A stretch of DNA of 33,905 nucleotides from Candidatus Gaiellasilicea maunaloa (lineage in GTDB: Bacteria > Actinomycetota > Thermoleophilia > Gaiellales > Gaiellaceae), in assembly GCA_024330215.1 (NCBI GenBank), contig JANDLU010000032.1, forward strand, positions 1 to 33,905, read 5' to 3'. Below are positions 5,197 to 33,905 of this stretch, in pieces (the stretch's first letter is position 1; every line of letters starts with the position of its first letter). The translations under genes were made by a program, and so were the position numbers. The notes under the pieces are model-generated. The model did not search any database. It saw only the letters and a program-made list of their open reading frames with translations, and was not told where the DNA came from.

Positions 5197-5389
5197 GGGG
5201 AACGCTCTACCCGGCTCCGCCGAACTCAACCTCGAGACCTCAGCGTCGGCACCTAGCGCTGCTCGTAGCGGTAGCAGGCCGGCCAGAGCAGGATCGCGAG
5301 CGGCGGGCTGCACCCAGCGCCTTGACCGGGGCGAGCGGACGCTTCCACACTCCTTGGTTCTCACCAGCCTCGGCCATCGACATGCATAA

Positions 5390-5415
5390 CGGAACAGATG
5401 TTCGGCCGGTATCCT
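5390..5415 (+). promoter_or_regulatory. LexA-type SOS box and -10 box of uvrB
   Basis: CGGAACAGATGTTCGG (5390-5405) contains the GAAC-N4-GTTC core recognised by LexA in actinobacteria and Bacillus. TATCCT (5410-5415) follows and ends 7 nt before the uvrB ATG, so the box sits in the promoter spacer and would block transcription. The outer arms deviate from a perfect palindrome at one pair. No clear -35 is visible. Confidence 0.75.
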
Positions 5416-5422
5416 GGAACCG

Positions 5423-7432
5423 ATGGCGGAGTTGAAGACTGCGGCGGCATATCTCCCGACCGGCGACCAGCCGACGGCGATCGAGGAGCTGACGCGCTCG
5501 ATCCGGGAGGGGAGTCGCTACCAGACCCTGCTCGGCGCGACCGGGACCGGCAAAACCGCGACGATGGCCTGGATCATCGAGCAGACCCAGCGGCCGGCGC
5601 TCGTGATCGCCCACAACAAGACGCTCGCCGCGCAGCTCTGCAACGAGTTCCGCGAGTTCTTCCCGACGAACGCCGTCGAGTACTTCGTCTCCTACTACGA
5701 CTACTACCAGCCCGAGGCGTACGTCCCGCAGGCCGACCTCTACATCGAGAAGGACAGCTCGCGGAACGACGACATCGACCGGCTCCGCCACGCGGCCACC
5801 TCGAACCTGCTCTCGCGGCGGGACACGGTGATCGTCGCCTCCGTCTCGTGCATCTACGGCCTCGGCTCGCCGGAGGAGTACGAGAAGCGCGTCGTCTTCC
5901 TGACAGTCGGCGAGGAAACCGACCGCGACGTGATGCTGCGGAAGCTGATCGACATCCAGTACGTCCGTAACGACACGCTGCTCGGCCGGGGCCGCTTCCG
6001 CGTCAAGGGCGACGTCTTCGAGATCCAGCCGGCGTACTCCGAGACCGCGTACCGCGTGTCCATGTTCGGCGACGAGGTCGAGGCGATCAGCCACTTCGAC
6101 CCGCTCACCGGCGAGGTGTACGGCAAGCTCGACACGATCACGGTCTTCCCGGCGACGCAGTACGTGACCTCGAAGCCGACGATCGAACGCGCGCAGGACG
6201 AGATCAAGCACGAGCTCGAGCAGCAGGTGGCGCTCTTCGAGAGCCAGGGCCGGCTGCTCGAGGCGCACCGGATCCGTCAGCGCACCGAGTACGACCTCGA
6301 GATGATGCGCGAGCTCGGCTTCTGCAACGGGATCGAGAACTACTCGCGGATCCTCGACGGCCGGCCGGCGGGCTCGGCGCCGCACACGCTGCTCGACTAC
6401 TTCCCCTCCGACTACGTCGTCTTCGTGGACGAGTCGCACCAGACGATCCCGCAGATCGGCGGCATGTACGAGGGCGACCGCTCGCGCAAGCAGACGCTCG
6501 TCGATCACGGCTTCCGGCTTCCCTCGGCGCTCGACAACCGACCGCTCCGCTTCGACGAGTTCCTGAACAAGGTGCCGCAGCTCATCTTCGTCTCCGCGAC
6601 CCCGGGCGCCTACGAGTTGCGCCACTCGACGGTCGTCGCCGAGCAGCTGATCCGCCCCACCGGGATCGTCGATCCCGAGGTCGAGCTGCGTGCGACGAAG
6701 AACCAGATCGACGACCTCTTGAACGAGATCCGGCGGCGCGCGGACGTGGGCGAGCGGGTGCTCGTGACGACGCTGACGAAGAAGATGTCCGAGGACCTGA
6801 CCGACTACCTGCTCGAGGCGGGCGTCAAGACGCGCTACCTCCACTCAGAGGTTGACACGCTCGAGCGGATCCAGATCATCCGCGAGCTCCGGCTCGGCGA
6901 CTACGACGTGCTCGTCGGCGTCAACCTCCTCCGCGAGGGGCTCGACCTGCCGGAGGTCTCGCTCGTCGCGGTGCTGGACGCCGACAAGGAGGGCTTCCTG
7001 CGCGGCAAGACGGCGTTGATCCAGACGATCGGGCGCGCCGCGCGGAACGTCAACGGGCGCGTCCTCCTCTATGCGGACAAGCTGACCGAGGCGATCAAGG
7101 GCGCGCTCGACGAGACCGAGCGACGGCGGGCGAAGCAGCTCGCGTACAACGAGGAGCACGGGATCACGCCCGAGAACATCGTCAAGGGAGTCTCTGACAT
7201 CGCCGAGTTCCTTTCCCTGGGGTCGCCGACCGTGCCGCGAGGCCGGCGCGCGGGGGGCTCGAAGGTCGAGGGATTGAGCCGCGAGGAGCTCGAGAAGCTC
7301 GTGATCACGCTGGAGGAGGAGATGTTCGCCGCCGCCGAGGAGCTCCGCTTCGAGTACGCGGCGAAGCTCCGGGACGAGATCAAGGACCTGAACCGCGAGC
7401 TGATGGCCCTCGCGAGCACGAGCGCGGCGTAG
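5423..7432 (+). CDS. uvrB: UvrABC excinuclease subunit B
   Basis: A 669-residue helicase-like damage-verification subunit of nucleotide excision repair, full length for the family. Walker A is GATGTGKT at residues 38-45. The damage-probing beta-hairpin region reads [20 protein letters not shown]. Further signatures are [20 protein letters not shown], the SATPG motif and helicase motif VI ([19 protein letters not shown]). The C-terminal UVR domain ([20 protein letters not shown]) binds UvrC/UvrA. The ATG at 5423 lies 7 nt after a TATCCT -10 box, which implies a leaderless transcript. The LexA-type box just upstream suggests DNA-damage induction, as for uvrA at 13279. A long open frame on the opposite strand is a codon-bias shadow. 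Confidence 0.97.
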
Positions 7433-8830: not shown

Positions 8831-10345
8831 CTACGCTGCTGCCAGCGCCCCCAGCTTCTCCGTCAGGTAGCGGACGTACGGTTTCGCGTCGATCTGACCT
8901 CCGACGACGCGCTCGAGCGTCTCCTGCGGCGTGAACTTCCGGCCGAGCACGTAGAGGTTGGAGCGAAGCCAGGCATGGAGCTCGCCGAACTCGCCCGCCT
9001 CGAACTGCGCCGGCAGATCGGGCAGCTCCGAGGCGACCTTGTCCCAGATCTGGACCGAGACGATGTTGCCGAGCGTGTAAGTCGGGAAATAGCCGAAGCC
9101 GCCGCCGGACCAATGCACGTCCTGGAGGACGCCGACCGTGTCGCTCGGGATCGGGATCCCGAGGTATTGCTCGAAGCGCGCGTTCCACGCCTCCGGCAGA
9201 TCCGCTAGCGCGATCGTGCCCGCGATCAGCTCCTGCTCGAGCTCGAAACGGAGGATGACGTGGAGGTTGTACGTCGCCTCGTCGGCGTCGACGCGGATGT
9301 AGCTCGGCTTGACGCGGTTGATCGCCCGGTAGAAGGCGTCCTGCTCGACGTCCCGGAGTGTGTCCGGGAACGCCGCCTGGACCTGCGGGTAGAAGTAGTT
9401 CCAGAAGGGTCGGCTGCGGCCGACGATGTTCTCCCAGAGCCGGCTCTGCGACTCGTGCAATGCCGATGAGACCCCGCTGCAGAGCGGCGTCCGCTCGAGG
9501 GTCTGCGAGATCCCGTGCTCGTAGAGTCCGTGCCCGCACTCGTGCATCGCGGTGAAGAGCGAAGTGAGGTCGTTGTCGGTGTAGCGCGTCGTCAGCCGGA
9601 TGTCCTGGGTGCCCGAGCTCGCCGCGAAGGGATGGACTGTGAGATCGAGTCGGAAGTACTGCGGGTCGTAACCGAACCGCTCGATCACCCGCAGCGACGT
9701 CTCGTGCTGGGCGTCGATCGGAAACGGGCCGCGCATGAAGCCGTCGTCCTCGTCCGACGAGGCGACCTCGGCGATCAGGGGCACCAGCGAGGCCTTCAGC
9801 TCGTCGAAGACCGCCCGTACCTCGGCCGTCTTCATCCCGGGCTCGTAGTCGTCGAGCAACACGTCGTAGGGCTCCGCGTAGCCCTCGAAGCAGTCGATGT
9901 AGCGCCGCTTCAGCTCGACGGCGCGCTCGAGATGGGGGAGAAAGCTGGCGAAGTCGTTCTCCTCGCGCGCCTTCGCCCAGATGTCGTGGGCCTCCGCGGC
10001 GGCCCCGACCATCTCGGCCGCGAGATCGGCGGGCACGCGGCGCGCTTTCTCCCAGTCGCGCCGGCTCGTCCGGATCAGCGAGGCATCGTCGGAGTCGTAG
10101 TCGAGGCTCTCCTCGTAGGAGGCAAGACCGTCGAGCAGCCGCCCGACCTCGGGCACCACGAAGCGCTCGTGGGCGATCCGATCGATCGTCGTCAGCTGGG
10201 CTCCGCGCACCGGCCCGCCGCCGGGAGGCATCATCACGGTCTGATCCCAGAAGAGCACCTCCTGGGCGCGGCGGAGGTCGTGGATCTCCGCCAGCCGGCT
10301 CCTCAGCTCGGCAAGCTCGTTCGGTTCCGCAGGACGATCGGGCAT
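8831..10345 (-). CDS. M32 family metallocarboxypeptidase (Taq-type)
   Basis: A 504-residue cytoplasmic zinc carboxypeptidase, normal length for the family. The zinc motif HExxH reads HECGH at residues 268-272 inside TAMHECGHGLYEHG. The downstream block HESQSRLWENIVGRSRPFW supplies the third zinc-binding Glu. Another family motif is DIRLTTRYTDNDLTS. The enzyme removes C-terminal residues from peptides with broad specificity. The ATG at 10345 is preceded by a purine-rich Shine-Dalgarno (GGAGAG). It converges with the YeaQ-type gene, with a 167-bp gap in which I see no element like those at 11908 and 22021. Confidence 0.95.
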   Translation of the reverse strand: MPDRPAEPNELAELRSRLAEIHDLRRAQEVLFWDQTVMMPPGGGPVRGAQLTTIDRIAHERFVVPEVGRLLDGLASYEESLDYDSDDASLIRTSRRDWEKARRVPADLAAEMVGAAAEAHDIWAKAREENDFASFLPHLERAVELKRRYIDCFEGYAEPYDVLLDDYEPGMKTAEVRAVFDELKASLVPLIAEVASSDEDDGFMRGPFPIDAQHETSLRVIERFGYDPQYFRLDLTVHPFAASSGTQDIRLTTRYTDNDLTSLFTAMHECGHGLYEHGISQTLERTPLCSGVSSALHESQSRLWENIVGRSRPFWNYFYPQVQAAFPDTLRDVEQDAFYRAINRVKPSYIRVDADEATYNLHVILRFELEQELIAGTIALADLPEAWNARFEQYLGIPIPSDTVGVLQDVHWSGGGFGYFPTYTLGNIVSVQIWDKVASELPDLPAQFEAGEFGELHAWLRSNLYVLGRKFTPQETLERVVGGQIDAKPYVRYLTEKLGALAAA

Positions 10346-10401
10346 TGTTCTCTCCTCTTCCGGGACGGTGCCAGGACTCTAGAGGAGCGAACGGTTTGCG
10401 G

Positions 10402-10423
10402 CACCTGTCCCGTGGGGACGGTG
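10402..10423. repeat. Inverted repeat (hairpin) in a 126-bp divergent gap
   Basis: CACC-T-GTCCC / GGGAC-GGTG forms a 9-bp stem with one bulged T and a 3-nt loop. It lies between the M32 start (10345) and the second YeaQ-type start (10472), so it is in a promoter region and not at a gene end. Function unknown. Confidence 0.45.
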
Positions 10424-10471
10424 GGGGCGAGGGGCGAGCTGGCACCGCCCTGCTACGAAACGGGAGGTTCC

Positions 10472-10744
10472 ATGGGCATCATCGCGTTCATCATCCTCGG
10501 CGCGATCGCAGGTGCGATTGCGAAGGCGCTCCTCCCCGGGGACGATCCCGGGGGTTTCATCATCACGACGATCATCGGGATCGTGGGAGCGCTCCTGGGA
10601 GGATTCCTGGCTGCCGCGATCTTCGGCGGCGACCCGCTCGACGAGTTCTTCGACATCAGCACCTGGTTGACCGCGATCGTCGGCGCGATCATCCTGCTCG
10701 TGATCTACCGGGCGGTGGCGGGCCGCAGCGGAAGAACGGTCTGA
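10472..10744 (+). CDS. GlsB/YeaQ/YmgE-type small membrane protein (second copy)
   Basis: A 90-residue paralogue of the protein at 8352-8663, with helices MGIIAFIILGAIAGAIAKAL, FIITTIIGIVGALLGGFLAA and LTAIVGAIILLVIYRAVAG. The GDDPGG loop between helices 1 and 2 is typical of the group. A clear GGAGG (10463-10467) lies 4 nt before the ATG. The gene converges with the metallophosphoesterase, leaving only 8 bp between stop codons. Confidence 0.87.
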   Translation: MGIIAFIILGAIAGAIAKALLPGDDPGGFIITTIIGIVGALLGGFLAAAIFGGDPLDEFFDISTWLTAIVGAIILLVIYRAVAGRSGRTV

Positions 10745-10752
10745 CGGAAACC

Positions 10753-11577
10753 TCAGCTTGCGTTGAAGGCCAGTGCCTCACGGCCGCGCGGGAACGTCCG
10801 CACGGCCGTGAGGCCCCAGCCGTCGTCGCGCCAGATGTAGGTGAGGATCCTGAGCGCGGCTTCCGCCACCTCATAGACATGGAGGCCGCGGGCCTCGCCA
10901 CGGCGATCCGGACGGGGCTGGCCGAAGCCGGGTGCGATCGACGCCACGACGGCCCGCTCTCCGCCCGGGGTCGAGATCTCGAACTCCCTTCGCTCGGCGA
11001 TCGTGCTCTGGTGGATGTGTCCGGCGAGGATCAGCTCGGCGCCCGCCTCGACGAAGCTCCCGAGTACGCGGTTGCGGTTGGCGACCGGCCGCTTGCCCGA
11101 GCGCCAAGGAGCGCCGAGGAGGTGATGGTGGAGCACGACGATCCGGAGCGCCCCGGCCGGCGCCTCGTCGAAGACCTTCGCCGCGTGCACGACCTGCGCG
11201 GGCCGCACCTTTCCCGACTGATGCCGCCACGGCCGCACCGAGTTCAGCCCTGCCGCGACCACCGTCTCCGAGGAGTAGACGGGTTGCGTCGTCTCCCAGT
11301 GGCGCTCGAACTCGGCCCAAGGCTTGGTGAAGCGCTTCGGGAAGCTGTACGGGATGTCGTGGTTGCCGGGCACTGCGAGCAGCGGGAGCTGCAGTCCGAG
11401 CAGAAACTCGGCCGCGCGATCGTGCTGCGAGCGCAGCCCGCGGTGGGTGAGGTCGCCGGAGGCGATCACGAGCTCGGGGTGCACCTCCTCGATCAGCCGC
11501 GCGAGCGCGTCGATCGGCTGCGGCTTGACGTTGCGTCCGAAATGAAGGTCGGAGATATGCAGGACGCGCGTCAGCAC
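10753..11577 (-). CDS. Calcineurin-like metallophosphoesterase (CpdA-like)
   Basis: A 274-residue class III phosphodiesterase-type protein. The dimetal motifs are in order: DLHFGR (D-x-H), GDLTHRG (GDxx), GNHDIPY (GNHD), HHHLLGAP and AGHIHQS (GHxH). It resembles CpdA/Icc cyclic-nucleotide phosphodiesterases, but the substrate cannot be told. I choose GTG 11577 (VLTRVLHISDLHFG) over the longer frame to 11607, because TACGCT (11590-11585) ends 7 nt upstream and no homology lies before it. The mRNA is then leaderless. It diverges from the small membrane protein gene at 11641, with the two -10 boxes about 40 bp apart. Confidence 0.88.
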   Translation of the reverse strand: MLTRVLHISDLHFGRNVKPQPIDALARLIEEVHPELVIASGDLTHRGLRSQHDRAAEFLLGLQLPLLAVPGNHDIPYSFPKRFTKPWAEFERHWETTQPVYSSETVVAAGLNSVRPWRHQSGKVRPAQVVHAAKVFDEAPAGALRIVVLHHHLLGAPWRSGKRPVANRNRVLGSFVEAGAELILAGHIHQSTIAERREFEISTPGGERAVVASIAPGFGQPRPDRRGEARGLHVYEVAEAALRILTYIWRDDGWGLTAVRTFPRGREALAFNAS

Positions 11578-11626
11578 TGGCACGAGCGTACCCCCCGCCG
11601 GGGGCATGAGAACCGCCGATCCCGGC

Positions 11627-11634
11627 TATACACT
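11627..11634 (+). promoter_or_regulatory. -10 box for a leaderless small gene
   Basis: TATACACT contains TACACT (11629-11634), which ends 6 nt before the ATG at 11641. No Shine-Dalgarno is visible. Confidence 0.5.
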
Positions 11635-11640
11635 CGTTTC

Positions 11641-11907
11641 ATGACGGATCGAGCACCCGACAGCGCAGCGGCGGACGAGGCGCCCGAGATCTTCGACGAT
11701 CTCTACCTCGGCCTCCGCGCCGGCGGCGCCCTCCGCAAGCAGCGTCGCGGCGAGCCGCTGACGAGGGACGAGCAGGACGCCCTCGGGCGCTGGCAGCGGC
11801 TCTCCGTCGGCCGCAAGACGCTTGCGATCGGCGCCTTCGCGATCGGTACCTTCGGGCTCGGCTTCACCCTCGGCGGGCTCATCTTCGGCCGCTGGCGCAA
11901 AGCCTGA
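11641..11907 (+). CDS. Small single-pass membrane protein, unknown function
   Basis: An 88-residue protein that I cannot assign to a named family. The N-terminal ~50 residues are acidic then basic (DEAPEIFDDLYLGLRAGGAL, KQRRGEPLTRDEQDALGRW). A single Gly-rich hydrophobic helix near the C-terminus (LAIGAFAIGTFGLGFTLGGL) ends in a short basic tail, FGRWRKA. The likely topology is N-terminus inside with a C-terminal anchor. Start ATG 11641 fits the leaderless pattern. The stop at 11905-11907 abuts the palindromic element at 11908-12062. Confidence 0.7.
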   Translation: MTDRAPDSAAADEAPEIFDDLYLGLRAGGALRKQRRGEPLTRDEQDALGRWQRLSVGRKTLAIGAFAIGTFGLGFTLGGLIFGRWRKA

Positions 11908-12062
11908 CTCCTCGCGTCCCTGGCCGGCGGCGCCTCCCGGCCGGCGGAGCCGGCCTCCGGCGCCGCCTCGCGCGCCTGAGCGCACGCGGCTCTGCGGGTC
12001 TGGCCTAGCGGCCTATCCCCTCCGGCCGCGCACGCTCAGCCACGCGCCAGGAGCACGAGGAG
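11908..12062. repeat. 155-bp three-stem palindromic element, copy A
   Basis: Fills most of the gap between convergent genes. P1: CTCCTCGCGTCCCTGGC (11908-11924) pairs with GCCAGGAGCACGAGGAG (12046-12062), 14 Watson-Crick and 1 GU of 17. P2: GGCCGGC-GGA-GCCGGCC (11939-11955), extended by GGCGGCGCC/GGCGCCGCC (11926-11934 with 11959-11967). P3: GCGCG and CTGAGCG (11970-11982) pair with 12033-12047, continuing as CGCGGC/GCCGCG (11985-11990 with 12025-12030). Copy B at 22021-22174 has the same architecture. No T-rich tract follows either arm. Confidence 0.75.
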
Positions 12063-12085
12063 AGCGGGAATTCGCTCTCAGGCTC

Positions 12086-13213
12086 TCAGGCGGTCTCGGA
12101 GTCGGCCGGTGAGAAGATCACCGTCGGTACGTCTTCCTCGGCGGGATCCTTGCCGCGCACGATCACGTCGATCAGCGTCGCGAGCACGGCGGCGAGCGGG
12201 ATCGCGAGGAGGACTGCGAACTCGCCGAAGAGGAGCGCCACGCTCGTGATCGAGAAGAGCACGAGCAGTGGCGAGAGCCCGACGGCCTCGCCGAGCACGC
12301 GCGGGATCACGATGTAGTCCTCGAGCAGCCGGACGACGAGGACAGTCACTCCTGCGGCGAGCCCGAGCTGCCAGGACACGGTCAGGCCGGCGCCGACCGC
12401 GACCGCGCCGGCTGTGAGCGGCCCGATCACCGGCACGATCTCCACGATCCCGGCGAAGACGCCGATCAGGATCCAGTAGGGCAGGCCGATCGCCCAGAAG
12501 ACGAGCGAGAGCACAGTGCCGACGATCGCGATCAGGATCGCCTGGCCGCGCACGTAGGCCCCGAGCTTGAGGTCGATCAGATCCCAGGTGTCGCGGACCT
12601 TCTTCCGGCGCGGCCGGGGAATCACCGAGGTGACGAGACTCATCGCCTTCTCCCGCTCGAAGATCCAGTAGGCGGCGCTCGCGAAGACGAAGAAGAGCCC
12701 GATCAGGATCTCGAAGCCGAGGAAGCCGATCTCGAGCGCGGGATCGACGAGCTCGCTCGCCGAAGGCAGCTCCTCGAGGCGTTGCTGCACTCCTTCGAGG
12801 ATCTCACGGCGCATCCCCGTCGACTGGCTCGCCTCGACCTCGAGCTCCTCGGGGGACCTCGGGAGATCGCCGAGGGCGTTCGAGACCTGCTCGGTCGCTC
12901 GCGGAACGACGACCCAGAGCAAGCCTGTGATCAGCGCGAAGAAGCCGATGTAATGGATGGCGATTCCAGCTCCGCGCGGGACGCCCCGCCGACGCAGTGC
13001 CTCGATCCCCGGCCGCATCGCGGCGGCAATGATGAAGGCGAAGAAGAGGAGCGCGACGAGGACTCGGATCTTCCAGAGGGCGAGCCCCAACACGACGACG
13101 CCGCCCACGACGAGAGTCGCGAGCGCCGCGCGCTTCGCGGTTTCGGCCATCGCGGGCATCATCCCACGGCGGCTGGGTTCGCTAACCCGGGTTCGCAGGC
13201 GTCGCGAGTTCAC
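12086..13213 (-). CDS. AI-2E family permease
   Basis: A 375-residue multi-helix membrane protein of the AI-2E/PerM family (about eight helices), some of which export small molecules or act as Na+/H+ antiporters; the substrate here is unknown. Family signatures are [20 protein letters not shown] with the following [23 protein letters not shown], and a soluble stretch after helix 3 (residues ~110-165). The start is uncertain. GTG 13213 has a TACAAC box 8 nt upstream; ATG 13162 or ATG 13150 ([10 protein letters not shown]) would remove a basic extension of 17-21 residues. It diverges from uvrA, whose LexA-type box lies in the shared gap. Confidence 0.88.
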
Positions 13214-17351: not shown

Positions 17352-17392
17352 GGCGACGATACCGCTCGGGCCGGGAAGCAGGGACGCGTCGC
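17352..17392 (-). promoter_or_regulatory. 41-bp repeated promoter segment, copy 1
   Basis: This 41-bp stretch differs from 21340-21380 at two positions only. On the minus strand it ends with the TATCGT -10 box of the thioesterase gene. The same -10 in copy 2 faces the lipoprotein gene. The sequence identity covers the whole presumed promoter, which is far more than two -10 boxes would require. Confidence 0.65.
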
Positions 17393-21339: not shown

Positions 21340-21380
21340 GGCGACGATAGCGCTCGGGCCGGGAAGCTGGGACGCGTCGC
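21340..21380 (-). promoter_or_regulatory. 41-bp repeated promoter segment, copy 2
   Basis: Matches 17352-17392 at 39 of 41 positions. Read on the minus strand it ends in the TATCGT -10 box facing the lipoprotein operon. The divergent Yip1-like gene's own -10 (TAGGCT, 21381-21386) begins right at its other edge. Confidence 0.65.
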
Positions 21381-21392
21381 TAGGCTCATCCG

Positions 21393-22016
21393 ATGAGCTC
21401 CGACCGGCAATGGTGGCTCCGTGTGCCGGCCGTGTTCCTCAGCCCCGGCTCGGTCTTCGCGGCGCTGCGGAACGAGGAGCAGGAGGACGTCGATGCGCGG
21501 CAGGAGCCGATTCTCGCGCTCGTCTATCTCGCCGGGATCGCGGCTGTACTCGGCACGTCGACGGCCGGAAGCCTCCTCGACGACGGCGAGTACGACTCGC
21601 TGCTGGTCGCAGTCTGGGCCGTGATCGCCGGCGGGATCTACGGCCTGGCCGGCTACTTCATCATCGGCGGCGCGCTCTACCTCGGCGCCCGCGGGCTGGG
21701 GAGTCTCGGCACCTATCGTCGAGCTCGCCATCTGCTCGGGTTCGCGGCTGCGCCGCTCGCGCTCTCGCTCCTCTTCGTCTGGCCGGTGGAGCTCGCCGTT
21801 CTCGGCAGCGACGTCTTCCGCACCGGCGGCTCGGACGACGGCACGGCAGACCTCGTCTTCGACGGACTGGAGCTCGGCTTCGCGCTCTGGTCGGCCGCGT
21901 TGCTGCTCCTGGGCGTCCGCGCCGTCCACGGCTGGAGCTGGTGGCGCTCCCTCGGCGTGATGGGGCTCGTCGCGCTCTTCCTCGCCGCCTTCGCGTACCT
22001 CCCCTCTGTCCTCTAG
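21393..22016 (+). CDS. Yip1-family membrane protein
   Basis: A 207-residue integral membrane protein with a Yip1-like domain. The short cytoplasmic N-terminus has the family pattern WWLRVPAVFLSPGSVFAALR; about five helices follow (ALVYLAGIAAVLGTS, VAVWAVIAGGIYGLAGYFII, LLGFAAAPLALSLLFVW, ALWSAALLLLGVRAV, LGVMGLVALFLAAFAYLPS). Bacterial Yip1 proteins have no established role. ATG 21393 is 6 nt after TAGGCT, so the mRNA is probably leaderless. The stop at 22014-22016 is followed 4 nt later by the palindromic element at 22021. Confidence 0.8.
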   Translation: MSSDRQWWLRVPAVFLSPGSVFAALRNEEQEDVDARQEPILALVYLAGIAAVLGTSTAGSLLDDGEYDSLLVAVWAVIAGGIYGLAGYFIIGGALYLGARGLGSLGTYRRARHLLGFAAAPLALSLLFVWPVELAVLGSDVFRTGGSDDGTADLVFDGLELGFALWSAALLLLGVRAVHGWSWWRSLGVMGLVALFLAAFAYLPSVL

Positions 22017-22020
22017 CGCC

Positions 22021-22174
22021 GTCTGAGCGTCCCTGGCCGGCAGCCCTCCCGGCCGGCGAAGCCGGCCTCCGGGGCACCGCGCGCCGCTCGCGCCGCCTCC
22101 AGCCGCGGTCCTCGTATTCCCATACTGTGGCCACGGCCTACACGACGCGAGCGACGCGCCAGGAACGCTCAGAC
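22021..22174. repeat. 154-bp three-stem palindromic element, copy B
   Basis: Fills the gap between convergent yip1-like and panB genes. P1: GTCTGAGCGTCCCTGGC (22021-22037) pairs with GCCAGGAACGCTCAGAC (22158-22174), 16 of 17 positions. P2: GGCCGGC-GAA-GCCGGCC (22051-22067). P3: GCGCGCCGCTCGCG (22079-22092) pairs with CGCGAGCGACGCGC (22146-22159), 13 of 14, then GCCGCGG/CCACGGC (22102-22108 with 22131-22137). The right P1 arm contains the panB stop codon. The left third is nearly identical to copy A (about 43 of 47 at 22027-22072); the rest differs in sequence but keeps pairing. Confidence 0.8.
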
Positions 22175-23062
22175 CCGATCTGTTGTCCAGCTCTCGAACA
22201 GCGCCAGCTCCTCGTCGGGCATCGAGTAGGTGTGCTGCTCCTCGGGGAAGCGGCGCTCGCGGACGTCGGAGACGTAGGCAGAGACGGCCCTCGTGATCTC
22301 GGTCGCGAGGTCGGCGTACTGCTTGACGAAGCGCGGCGAGCCGCCCTCGTAGAGGCCGAGCAGGTCATGCCAGACGAGCACTTGGCCGTCGCACCCCGCG
22401 CCGGCACCGATCCCGATCGTCGGAATCGAGAGCAGCTCGGTGATCCTGGCGGCGACCGGCGCCGGCACGGCCTCGAGCACGAGCGCGAAGACCCCTGCGG
22501 CCTCGAGCGCGATCGCGTCTTCCACGAGCCGTCGAGCCTTCTCCGCCGTTCGGCCCTGAGCCTTGAAGCCGCCCAGCATCGTCGCCGACTGCGGCGTCAG
22601 CCCGATGTGACCCATCGTCGGCACTCCGGCACCGACGAGCGCTCGAACACGCGAGAGAGTGGCGCCCGCGCCCTCGACCTTGACGGCGTCCGCGCTCGCC
22701 TCCTTGAGGAAGCGGATCGCGTTTCCGAGGGCCTTCTCGTCGGAGATCTGGAAGGAGCCGAACGGCATGTCCGCGACGACGAGCGGACGCCTGGCGCCCC
22801 GGTTGACCGCCCGCGTGAGCACGATCATCTCGTCCATCGTCGCCGGCACGGTCGAGTCGTGCCCGAGCACGGTCATCGCCGCGGAATCGCCGACGAGGAG
22901 GATGTCCGCGCCTGCGGCATCGGCGAGCCTGCCGGACGGGGCGTCGTACGCGGTGATCATGGCGATCGGCTGGCGGCGAGCCTTCAGCTCGGCGAGCTCG
23001 GTGAGAGCGAGCTTGCCGGGAGCGGGGGTGCCCGGCGCTGGCTTGCGAGGACGAGTGGTCAT
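22169..23062 (-). CDS. panB: 3-methyl-2-oxobutanoate hydroxymethyltransferase
   Basis: A 297-residue ketopantoate hydroxymethyltransferase, first committed step of pantothenate synthesis (methylene-tetrahydrofolate plus alpha-ketoisovalerate). Family blocks: MITAYDAPSGRLADAAGADI, LLVGDSAAMTVLGHDSTVPA (metal-binding Asp), DMPFGSFQIS, VKVEGAG, MGHIGLTPQSA and the catalytic-Glu segment LVLEAVPAPVA followed by SIPTIGIGAGAGCDGQVLVW. The N-terminus has ~20 extra Pro/Lys-rich residues. ATG 23062 overlaps the panC stop (ATGA), so translation is coupled. The stop lies in the right arm of palindromic element B. Confidence 0.96.
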   Translation of the reverse strand: MTTRPRKPAPGTPAPGKLALTELAELKARRQPIAMITAYDAPSGRLADAAGADILLVGDSAAMTVLGHDSTVPATMDEMIVLTRAVNRGARRPLVVADMPFGSFQISDEKALGNAIRFLKEASADAVKVEGAGATLSRVRALVGAGVPTMGHIGLTPQSATMLGGFKAQGRTAEKARRLVEDAIALEAAGVFALVLEAVPAPVAARITELLSIPTIGIGAGAGCDGQVLVWHDLLGLYEGGSPRFVKQYADLATEITRAVSAYVSDVRERRFPEEQHTYSMPDEELALFESWTTDRV

Positions 23063-23841
23063 GGCTTCTCCTTGTCGAGGACGACGTTGTCGATCAGGCG
23101 GGTGGAGCCGACGCGGACGGCGGCGGCGAGGACAGGCGGGTCGAGATCGACGACCTCGACGTAGTCGACGTCGAGTCCGGCAAGCCGGGCTCGGGCGGAG
23201 TCGAGATCGCGAGTGGCGAGAGCTCGCGGCAGGGCGAGCGCGCGCTCGCGCTCGGCCGCCGTGAGCTGCGCGTTGCGCGACGAGAAGGCGAGCCCGTCGT
23301 GGTCGCGGACGGTCGGCAGCACCCGCAGCTCGAGCTCGAGGTCGAGATCGAGGTCGCGAATCATCCGCCGGAGCACCGCCACCTGTTGCGCGTCCTTCTG
23401 CCCGAAGTACGCGCGCGCGGGCCGCACGAGATTGAAGAGCTTGAGGCAGACGGTCGCGACCCCGCGGAAGTGACCCGGCCGGTGCTCCCCCTCGAGCCGG
23501 CGGCCGAGCTCCTCGACCTCGACCCAGGTCTGGTAGCCGGGCGGGTAGAGCTCGGCCGCATCCGGCGTGAAGAGCAGTTCGATCCCGGCTGCCTCGGCGA
23601 ACACGGCGTCGGCCCCGGGATCGTGTGGATAGCCGGCGAGATCGGAGCCCGCCTCGAACTGGGCCGGGTTGACGAAGAGGCTGACGACGACGGTGTCGCA
23701 CTCCTCGCGGGCCGCGCGGAAGAGCGAGCGGTGGCCGGCGTGGAAGGCGCCCATCGTCGGCACGAGCCCCACCGAGTCGCCGCGGCTGCGAGCAGGCGCG
23801 AGCGCCTCGCGCAGATCGGCGATCGTCGCGACCGTCGTCAC
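23059..23841 (-). CDS. panC: Pantothenate synthetase (pantoate-beta-alanine ligase)
   Basis: A 260-residue ATP-dependent ligase joining pantoate and beta-alanine. The HIGH-type nucleotidyltransferase motif is PTMGAFHAGHRSLFR. Other blocks are VVVSLFVNPAQFEAGSDLAG, YPHDPGADAVF, YFGQKDAQQ and the KMSKS-equivalent LAFSSRNAQL. It is slightly shorter than the usual ~280 residues, with a compact C-terminal domain. The start is GTG 23841, overlapping the DUF2520 stop (GTGA); the 3' end overlaps panB. This gives a tight DUF2520-panC-panB operon. Confidence 0.96.
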   Translation of the reverse strand: MTTVATIADLREALAPARSRGDSVGLVPTMGAFHAGHRSLFRAAREECDTVVVSLFVNPAQFEAGSDLAGYPHDPGADAVFAEAAGIELLFTPDAAELYPPGYQTWVEVEELGRRLEGEHRPGHFRGVATVCLKLFNLVRPARAYFGQKDAQQVAVLRRMIRDLDLDLELELRVLPTVRDHDGLAFSSRNAQLTAAERERALALPRALATRDLDSARARLAGLDVDYVEVVDLDPPVLAAAVRVGSTRLIDNVVLDKEKP

Positions 23842-24503
23842 AGGAGCTCCTTCGTCGTCGCGGCGAGCGTCGTGTACATCGACTCGAGCTTCGGTCGCTC
23901 GCGGCGGATCGCGGCGACATGCGTCTCGACCGTTGCCCAGTCGCCGCGCGCGATCGGCCCGGTCAGCTCGAAGCCGTTCTCGATCGTGCGCCGCATCAGC
24001 GGGTCGAGCGCTGCCGGCGGCGCGCCGGCGGACTCGAGGAGCGACCCGGCGGCGCGACGCAGCGTGACGAGGTAGTTCGAGGCGATTGCAGCGCCCGCGT
24101 GGTAGGCGTCGCGCTTGTCCTCGGGGAGCTCGAAGGGCTCGAGGCCGAGCGTGCGGGCGAGCCAGAAGCCGAGCTCCCGCGCCTCCTCGGTCTCGGCGGT
24201 CACGGCTGCGAATGCGCCGTCGAGCTGCTCGGCGCCGCGACCGCGCGTGAACGTCTGCAGCGGATGGAGGCCGAAGCGGCGGACGTGCGGAGCGAGCGCG
24301 GCGAGCGGCGTCGCCCCGCTCACGTGAACGACCCAGGGGCCAGGCTCAACAGTCCTCGCGACCTCGGCGATCGCCCGATCGGGGACGCAGAGCAGGACGA
24401 GGTGGGGACCATGCTCGGTCAGGGGGAGGCCGCGCTCGGCGAGCCTTGCGGCCAAAGCCGAGCCGACACGCCCCGCGCCGACGACATGAATGCTCGTAAT
24501 CAT
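23838..24503 (-). CDS. Rossmann-like DUF2520 protein
   Basis: A 221-residue NAD(P)-binding protein. The N-terminus has a dinucleotide fold (IHVVGAGRVGSALAARLAE, GxGxVG at 9-14), with VSGATPLAAL and FGLHPLQTF between. The C-terminal DUF2520 domain (DAYHAGAAIASNYLVTLRRA) is all-helical and resembles that of ketol-acid/6-phosphogluconate-type dehydrogenases. In many bacteria this family sits just upstream of panC, as here; a reductase step in pantothenate synthesis (ketopantoate reduction) is an attractive but unproven role, since no panE is present in the window. ATG 24503 follows GGAG at a long spacing. It diverges from the hydrolase gene 54 bp away. Confidence 0.88.
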   Translation of the reverse strand: MITSIHVVGAGRVGSALAARLAERGLPLTEHGPHLVLLCVPDRAIAEVARTVEPGPWVVHVSGATPLAALAPHVRRFGLHPLQTFTRGRGAEQLDGAFAAVTAETEEARELGFWLARTLGLEPFELPEDKRDAYHAGAAIASNYLVTLRRAAGSLLESAGAPPAALDPLMRRTIENGFELTGPIARGDWATVETHVAAIRRERPKLESMYTTLAATTKELL

Positions 24504-32900: not shown

Positions 32901-33859
32901 TCCTGGGCATCGAGACCTCGTGTGACGAGACGGCCGCGGCGCTCGTCACCCTGGACGGCGAGATCAAGGCGAACGTCGTCTCTTCGCAGGCCGACCTGCA
33001 CGCACGCTACGGCGGGGTCGTGCCCGAGGTGGCGTCGCGGCGGCACCTCGAGCTCGTCATGCCGGTGCTGCGCGAGGCTCTCGACGAGGCTGGTGCGACG
33101 CTCGACGAGGTCGAGCGCGTGGCGGTGACCCAGGGACCTGGGCTCGTCGGGGCGCTCCTCGTCGGCCTCTCGACTGCGAAGGCTCTCGCCTGGGCGCGCC
33201 GGTTGCCGCTCGTGCCTGTCGACCATCTACATGGGCATGTCGCCTCGCTCTACCTCGAGCCCGATCCCGTCGAGCCACCCTTCATCTGCCTGCTCGCGAG
33301 CGGGGGGCACACGCTGCTCCTCGATGTGCGCGCGTACGGCGGCTTCGACGTCCTCGGGACGACGCTCGACGACGCCGCCGGCGAGGCGTTCGACAAGGGC
33401 GCGCGCCTGCTCGGGCTCGGCTACCCGGGCGGAGCGGCAATCGACCGGCTCGCTCGTGGCGGCGACGCGACGGCGTTCTCGTTCCCTGTCGCGCGCCTCG
33501 ACGGTCTCGACTTCTCCTTCTCGGGTGTCAAGACCTCGCTGCTCTATGCGATCCGCGATCTCGGCGATCGCCTCGAGGCGTGCCGCTCCGACCTTGCGGC
33601 ATCGTACCAGCGCGCGATCGTGCGGGCGCTCGTCCAGGGCGCACTCGCCGCTGCGGAGCAGGCCGGGCGCGACACGATCGCGGTTGTCGGTGGCGTTGCA
33701 GCCAACTCCGAGCTCCGCGCGGCTCTCCCCGGCGCCCGCTTCGCCCCGCTTGCCCTCTGCACCGACAACGCGGCGATGATCGCCTCTGCCGGCCGGTACA
33801 GCAGACCGCTTCCCTATCCTCGGTACCTTGACCTCGACGCCTACGCCTCACGTGTCTGA
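32897..33859 (+). CDS. tsaD: tRNA N6-adenosine threonylcarbamoyltransferase TsaD
   Basis: A 320-residue ASKHA-fold enzyme that transfers threonylcarbamoyl to A37 of ANN-decoding tRNAs. Motifs: ILGIETSCDETAAALV, the VVPEVASRRHLE segment, TQGPGLVGALLVGLSTAKAL, metal-binding HLHGH with H110 and H114, LLASGGHTLLLDV, GEAFDKGARLLGLGYPGG, VVGGVAANSELR and CTDNAAMIA (metal-binding Asp). Full length. ATG 32897 overlaps the TmrB-like stop. The TGA stop (33857-33859) lies inside the first unit of a 15-bp tandem repeat. Confidence 0.96.
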   Translation: MILGIETSCDETAAALVTLDGEIKANVVSSQADLHARYGGVVPEVASRRHLELVMPVLREALDEAGATLDEVERVAVTQGPGLVGALLVGLSTAKALAWARRLPLVPVDHLHGHVASLYLEPDPVEPPFICLLASGGHTLLLDVRAYGGFDVLGTTLDDAAGEAFDKGARLLGLGYPGGAAIDRLARGGDATAFSFPVARLDGLDFSFSGVKTSLLYAIRDLGDRLEACRSDLAASYQRAIVRALVQGALAAAEQAGRDTIAVVGGVAANSELRAALPGARFAPLALCTDNAAMIASAGRYSRPLPYPRYLDLDAYASRV

Positions 33860-33905
33860 CCGCCCCGTGTCTGACCGCCCCGTGCCTGACCGCCCCGTGC
33901 CTGAC
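33852..33905 (+). repeat. 15-bp tandem repeat across the tsaD stop
   Basis: Units GTGTCTGACCGCCCC (33852 and 33867) and GTGCCTGACCGCCCC (33882 and, cut by the window edge, 33897). In one frame each unit encodes V-S/P-D-R-P and starts with GTG, so the array could supply several alternative start codons for a following gene that lies outside the window. The repeat continues past the edge. Confidence 0.75.

Follow-up and report, generated by a model that had tools for sequence, protein, structure and literature searches.

A folded repeat at gene ends in Candidatus Gaiellasilicea maunaloa and its relatives, probably a MITE/REP-like mobile element

Results and discussion

Two copies of a folded element between convergent genes

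The window, by which we mean the whole 33,905-nucleotide stretch of Candidatus Gaiellasilicea maunaloa DNA that was analysed, contains two copies of an intergenic element. Copy A (11908-12062) is preceded by a plus-strand gene without a Pfam family (10345-11907), whose own stop codon abuts the element, and is followed by a minus-strand gene for an AI-2E family transporter (12086-13213; PF01594, E 4e-42). Copy B (22021-22174) lies between a plus-strand gene for a Yip1-domain protein (21393-22016; PF04893) and the minus-strand panB gene (22169-23920), which has a C-terminal ketopantoate hydroxymethyltransferase domain. Both copies are assigned to the minus strand, on which copy A reads, in order, P1 5' strand, P3, P2 and P1 3' strand. 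The outer stem P1 of copy A comprises 17 positions, with 11908-11924 paired to 12046-12062. It encloses P2, a GC-rich hairpin (11926-11967) recognised from folds and conserved alignment columns, with a conserved GGA/GGGA internal loop in the minus-strand reading, and P3, a long interrupted stem (11970-12045) recognised from folds and covariation. The counterparts in copy B are P1 (22021-22037 paired to 22158-22174), P2 (22038-22079) and P3 (22081-22157), and the high-coordinate arm of P1 contains the current stop codon of panB, a TGA on the minus strand at 22169-22171. The panB product of the window genome now ends in ...ALFESWTTDRV, and its last residues are unlike those in G001, a genome of the same genus, because of the insertion of copy B. 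Copy A has a possible tail at 12063-12081, which together with position 12062 reads GAGAGCGGGAATTCGCTCTC and forms a foldback between the element end and the AI-2E stop codon (12086-12088); judged from this sequence, the insertion may extend beyond 12062 and into the foldback. The probable tail of the copy B insertion, the CCGATCTGTTGTCCAGCTC region at 22175-22193, is missing at the empty site in G001.

The original prediction had proposed this architecture of outer stem, GC-rich hairpin and long interrupted stem for both intervals, and folding confirms it, since none of 200 dinucleotide shuffles matches the fold of copy A or copy B on either strand. The prediction had read the plus strand, but the fold is stronger on the minus strand: -127.2 kcal/mol (z -9.16) versus -108.7 kcal/mol (z -5.97) for copy A, and -120.0 kcal/mol (z -9.45) versus -93.9 kcal/mol (z -7.18) for copy B. 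The C-A mismatch in P1 that was said to be shared is indeed present in both copies on the plus strand; on the minus strand, it is a U.G pair. Across 82 full-length copies from the family described below, this position reads CA 65, TA 10, CG 3 and GC 2 times on the plus strand, and a standard pair is formed in 80 of the 82 copies on the minus strand versus 15 on the plus strand. Among all modelled P1 pairs, C.A on the plus strand outnumbers G.U by 26 to 4, or by 23 to 4 (p = 0.0003) when each genome and position is counted once, although the copies share ancestry and such counts are not fully independent. The wobble strand bias in P2 and P3 is not significant. From the fold energies and the P1 wobble, the structured strand is the minus strand, and on the same two grounds a plus-strand RNA is rejected. 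As G.T pairs also occur in single-stranded DNA, the P1 wobble fixes the strand better than it separates RNA from DNA. A structured RNA spread by retrotransposition, in the manner of a SINE, would combine a one-strand fold with a tail and variable duplications, and the minus-strand G.U bias in P1 agrees with it, as do the varying tails and direct repeats described below. However, the reverse transcriptase family PF00078 is absent from all 25 family genomes searched (the window genome and 24 relatives), control genomes being positive, and retrotransposition is rejected on this evidence as extremely unlikely.

A lineage-specific family with compensatory changes

A DNA search of the window's own genome returns at least 30 matches to the element, and a covariance model built from 16 copies returns at least 31 at E up to 0.1, about 20 of which are full length. 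Model R1 matches copy A at 11909-12061 (134.2 bits) and copy B at 22022-22173 (104.7 bits), both copies belonging to its training set. Element length is about 150-175 nt, and a short form of about 80 nt, which lacks P3, occurs in several genera (L050, L073 and L087). Of 24 other genomes in this taxonomic family, 17 contain copies, with the highest number, at least 31, in G021; by model search, 16 genomes of three sister families have none. In a sample of the class, 35 of 249 genomes have matches under stricter filters, which make these counts lower bounds, and all 35 belong to one family. An exact P3 pattern searched against 84,980 species genomes matches only actinobacterial metagenome-assembled genomes, among them one from Thermoleophilia as well as genomes from soil or sediment. 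The same pattern, which represents only part of the family, matches none of 2.9 million viral contigs.

That pairing was kept while sequence changed, an argument first made from the two window copies, is upheld across 97 aligned copies, in which both sides have changed at 45 of 49 pairs and P1 shows double changes at all 11 modelled pairs. In this alignment, which was fitted to the model and to that extent favours structure, 92.5% of cells are paired, compared with 72.4% when shuffled, and the covariation score is 0.410, compared with 0.122 for shuffles and 0.03-0.06 for slid partners. None of 500 shuffles reaches the observed value of any measure, and sliding the partner by one to three columns abolishes the signal. 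Given how large the effect is, and given the folds obtained independently for copies, there is little doubt as to family-wide covariation, and the prediction was right in describing a selected-looking structure with compensatory changes. Paired changes could also arise without selection if template switching corrected the palindromes at replication. Consistent with this, wobble pairs are few (110 G.U and 113 C.A of about 3,700 scored cells in full copies); but internal loops and the asymmetric P1 wobble have been conserved rather than perfected, and all three stems stay paired across some 17 genera, which renders this explanation improbable.

Empty and occupied orthologous sites

G001 lacks copy B at its orthologous Yip1/panB junction, although the sequences flanking it align closely between the two genomes, and eight more copies have empty orthologous sites in G001. 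Most of the G021 copies amenable to comparison are missing from G057, and copies in G046 have empty orthologous sites in G002, G006, G009 and G010. The site of copy A holds no element in G002, G018 or G044, a short form in G021 and what may be a remnant in G013. Other sites are filled in two genomes (L041/L091, L048/L090, L053/L080 and L099/L120), and in one of these pairs, L048/L090, the G001 copy has a broken P2 hairpin. On the strength of these empty, two-genome and broken-P2 sites, we conclude that elements arrive, persist for a while and decay. In these genomes, mostly draft assemblies, which break at repeats, the nearest relative of 51 of 76 copies from multi-copy genomes lies within the same genome (11.6 of 81 expected).

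Two pairs of copies bear on genome structure. Near-identical copies L041 and L046, at the ends of own-genome contigs C48 and C170, lie no more than about 600 nt apart when mapped to G001; the two contigs are therefore likely to be neighbours, the assembly having broken at the repeats. Copies L032 and L042 (G000:C141:3637-3790 and 5364-5517), 1.7 kb apart, flank apparent duplicated ABC-2-type permease genes; the region shows 73% identity over about 1 kb, element included, and element and permease gene may have been duplicated together.

The original prediction had offered three options: a structured RNA, a bidirectional terminator or attenuator, and a REP/MITE-like family. The first two amount to a non-mobile RNA or terminator selected at these gene pairs, which would account for the strong fold and covariation, for the position of both window copies between convergent stops and for the occupation of some sites in more than one genus. 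Nevertheless, orthologous sites are mostly empty, the P2 hairpin is broken in G001 at a shared site, gene contexts are highly varied, and the fold is not followed by a T-run and corresponds to no Rfam family. A search of Rfam 15 at the gathering score gave no match in the window, and one at E up to 1 over eight loci gave one tRNA and two sub-threshold chance matches, nothing relevant. A fixed regulatory RNA or bidirectional terminator at these sites is rejected on the empty orthologous sites and varied contexts, and we regard it as very unlikely. An absence of further copies from relatives, or a failure to maintain the stems at homologous positions, had been named in advance as evidence against the proposal; relatives in fact contain many further copies, while the orthologous positions are mostly empty, as expected for a mobile element and unlike a conserved local RNA. 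The REP/MITE-like option is the best of the three. The element is dispersed and lineage-specific, has inserted recently at many sites, folds on the minus strand and is located at gene ends. We therefore consider it quite probable that it is a non-autonomous, MITE/REP-like mobile DNA repeat, an explanation that would include mobilisation by an enzyme acting in trans and translational coupling.

Insertion at gene ends

Gene contexts were taken from a simple codon-usage caller. On the structured strand, 47 of 102 copies (46%) have a sense-gene stop codon no more than 45 nt to their 5' side, versus 4.5% of control positions, and 27 of the 102 (26%, versus 4.8%) have an antisense-gene stop at their other end. 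Stops on both sides, sense on one and antisense on the other, are found in only 7 of 102 copies, which, together with the missing T-run, speaks against a bidirectional terminator; the convergent setting that had been emphasised holds for both window copies but is atypical of the family. Where the context could be called, copies mostly lie between codirectional genes or at the end of a single gene. Placement at start codons (47% of copies versus 30% of controls) barely exceeds background, start codons being less informative because GTG is common in GC-rich DNA. In addition, 8 of 95 copies begin between -3 and +1 nt from a tRNA 3' end, with the same element end and orientation each time. Insertion places comprise RTGA stop/start overlaps, stop codons and exact tRNA 3' ends, frequently accompanied by short direct repeats, and landing at gene ends usually leaves both neighbours intact. 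In G011 and its genus relatives (L110, L111, L113, L114 and L082), most examined copies are at tRNA 3' ends, and tails at these tRNA sites often contain CGATTC, reminiscent of the tRNA T-loop.

Direct repeats of at least 9 nt flank 7.7% of copies, versus 1.2% of mismatched pairs, and CTCAY is found on both sides of 19 copies, versus 8.1 expected, shared ancestry again making these counts less than fully independent. Individual cases range widely. Repeats are absent at L045 and L053. L034 has TCAC, L036 has CTCAC, L054 has about 10 nt, L047 has 14 nt and L111 has 22 nt, the 3' end of a tRNA-Ala gene. Overall, the lengths are 0, 4-6, about 10, 14 and 22 nt, with RTGAGC among the short ones, and with repeats varying from none to 22 nt, a single uniform insertion chemistry is not demonstrated. 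Many copies have tails of about 10-28 nt after one P1 arm, and the short-form L053 was inserted tail-less. The insertions of L053, L050 and copy B carried in both P1 arms, a point against the explanation preferred here.

A tyrosine recombinase of the integrase type, recombining short cores of element and target, would favour tRNA 3' ends and leave variable repeats. The exact insertion at eight tRNA 3' ends in constant orientation and the duplicated 22-nt tRNA-Ala end at L111 are in its favour. However, a comparable duplication is absent from the other tRNA copies, and only about 5 nt are shared with many protein-gene targets, so that we consider such an enzyme unlikely.

Insertions at stop/start overlaps in G046

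The best-resolved insertions are those of G046 (public records VAWW01...). At least seven copies there closely resemble one another, and their right ends take the form RTGAGCRAGCTCAY. To illustrate, L303 reads ...GACGCATGAGC / TTGCTCACGTTCC ... GTGAGC / GACTTGCGC... on the structured strand, and the corresponding empty sites read ...GGGATGAGC / GACGAGGAG... in G010 and ...CCGGTGAGC / GAGCCGGGG... in G009. L314 and L308 show the same pattern when compared with empty sites in G006 and G002. The empty sites of these three copies are RTGA overlaps, with (R)TGAGC at two of the loci and GTGA at the third, and the comparison indicates that the ancestral G046 junction is an overlap of stop and start codons at RTGA. 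In the occupied sites, host (R)TGAGC is followed directly by GCTCA of the element, and the element ends in RTGAGC. After insertion, the TGA of the upstream gene is kept and the downstream gene starts at the RTG (GTG or ATG) of the element end. Element-supplied start codons akin to these also occur in the window genome, at L050 and L053. A fixed short target whose motif recurs at the right end is seen in the G046 subfamily; L045, L053 and copy B do not show it clearly.

Transposases of the IS200/IS605 type (Y1, or HUH), such as those associated with REPs, cut hairpins 3' of a short, guide-paired target. In IS608, a member of this group, the target is kept in the left flank, the guide lies 5' of the hairpin and the right cleavage site is inside the element (PMC5934647). 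The arrangement of host TGAGC, element GCTCA and end TGAGC in G046 matches these three features, and most copy-bearing genomes have Y1 genes. In a search of 41 genomes, however, no Y1 gene was detected in G007, G011 or G023, which contain 2, 8 and 8 copies, and genomes without copies also have Y1 genes. When Y1 loci were scanned for copies, none of 30 examined had a credible one (best E 0.18), and the 14-nt and 22-nt direct repeats would be unexpected for this chemistry. In the absence of a link between Y1 loci and copies, a RAYT partner is rejected. Mobilisation by a Y1 enzyme is nonetheless judged the most likely mechanism within the preferred explanation of a mobile repeat, a serious possibility that falls somewhat short of an even chance. 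A simple left-end pattern searched in the own genome for a parent element matched exactly only the element copies and, by chance, one coding-like sequence; this search found no autonomous partner with the same ends. Separately, a Y1 (IS200-like) domain occurs just upstream of uvrA in three genera (G002:C26:57444, G010:C202:3719 and G017:C358:1745), at most about 550 nt from the query match, reflecting either a conserved neighbourhood or an overlapping reading frame.

A possible route of insertion and tolerance

We propose that an enzyme acting in trans recognises the folded minus strand in single-stranded DNA, with target choice perhaps aided, by analogy with IS200/IS605, by pairing of the target with the P1 5' strand. 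Where insertion is best resolved, the element sits 3' of RTGAGC at an RTGA overlap, and (R)TGAGC recurs at its opposite end. In the mRNA, P1 would pair the stretch just past the upstream stop codon with CCAGGGACGYGAG, holding the downstream start, and a terminating ribosome could open P1 and so keep the two genes translationally coupled. Such coupling would make the insertion tolerable, and coupling and transposition together would keep P1 paired. Only tentatively do we suggest that the element is specialised for stop/start overlaps, remaking RTGA at both ends, bringing its own start codon, coupling operon genes through the fold of the transcript and choosing its site through the pairing of a stem arm with the target. 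The proposal suggests how compact, operon-rich genomes may harbour a selfish element, which would insert at the meeting points of stop and start codons and restore the two. For annotators, the element accounts for unusual start codons and altered protein ends at junctions of this kind, for instance that of panB in the window. Should translational coupling through P1 hold true, the mobile element would bring with it a ready-made RNA device for operons.

Comparison with known repeats

Repeats of the bcr1 type are about 155 bp long and generate a fixed TTTAT duplication. In the Bacillus cereus group, bcr1-type repeats are interspersed, intergenic and MITE-like in structure and function, many residing in UTRs or operon intergenic regions, and bcr10 and bcr18 have conserved secondary structure (PMC3446304). 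The present element belongs to another phylum, targets a gene end or RTGA overlap and has variable repeats; the likeness to bcr1 is one of layout, by description. REPs share with it a high copy number, extragenic position, palindromic sequence, lineage specificity and suspected mobilisation in trans as single-stranded hairpins. However, REPs are 20-50 nt long with GTAG 5' of the hairpin (PMC8266576), whereas the element is 150-175 nt long, has three stems and lacks an association with Y1 genes; no conserved GTAG was found in the aligned copies or at copy ends. A further REP type is tagged by CGTC (PMC3733652) and likewise has no dedicated transposase; CGTC is found in some P1 arms, although there it does not tag a CCA-tailed stem of 8-9 bp. 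Members of IS200/IS605, with IS608 as the model, and their non-autonomous derivatives resemble the G046 subfamily of the element in inserting 3' of a short target, in possible guide pairing and in the matching sequence at the far end. The element differs from them in having no transposase gene, one closed outer stem instead of two subterminal hairpins, and (R)TGAGC and variants as its target. Classical DDE MITEs are similarly short and non-coding, with inverted ends and direct repeats, but in many copies of the element the P1 arms are not outermost, given one-sided tails of about 10-28 nt, and repeat length is not fixed. Searches of open-licence literature returned no description of such a repeat in the actinobacterial class concerned, nor of MITEs with translational coupling. 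Because the size, GTAG and RAYT features of REPs, the fixed duplication of MITEs, Rfam and the literature are all unmatched, we place the element among the MITE/REP-like non-autonomous mobile elements as a new family with an unusual choice of target, not assigned to any named family. With it, a little-studied actinobacterial class gains mobile folded repeats of a kind not described before.

Other repeats in the window

Two further repeats were noted in the window. A tandem 15-base repeat (CGTGTCTGACCGCCC-like) at 33851-33905 runs off the contig end and is probably the reason that the assembly stops there. A 41-nt sequence (GGCGACGATAnCGCTCGGGCCGGGAAGCnGGGACGCGTCGC) occurs twice with 95% identity, at 17352-17392 and 21340-21380, apparently outside called genes, and could represent a leader motif or one more small repeat of the dispersed kind.
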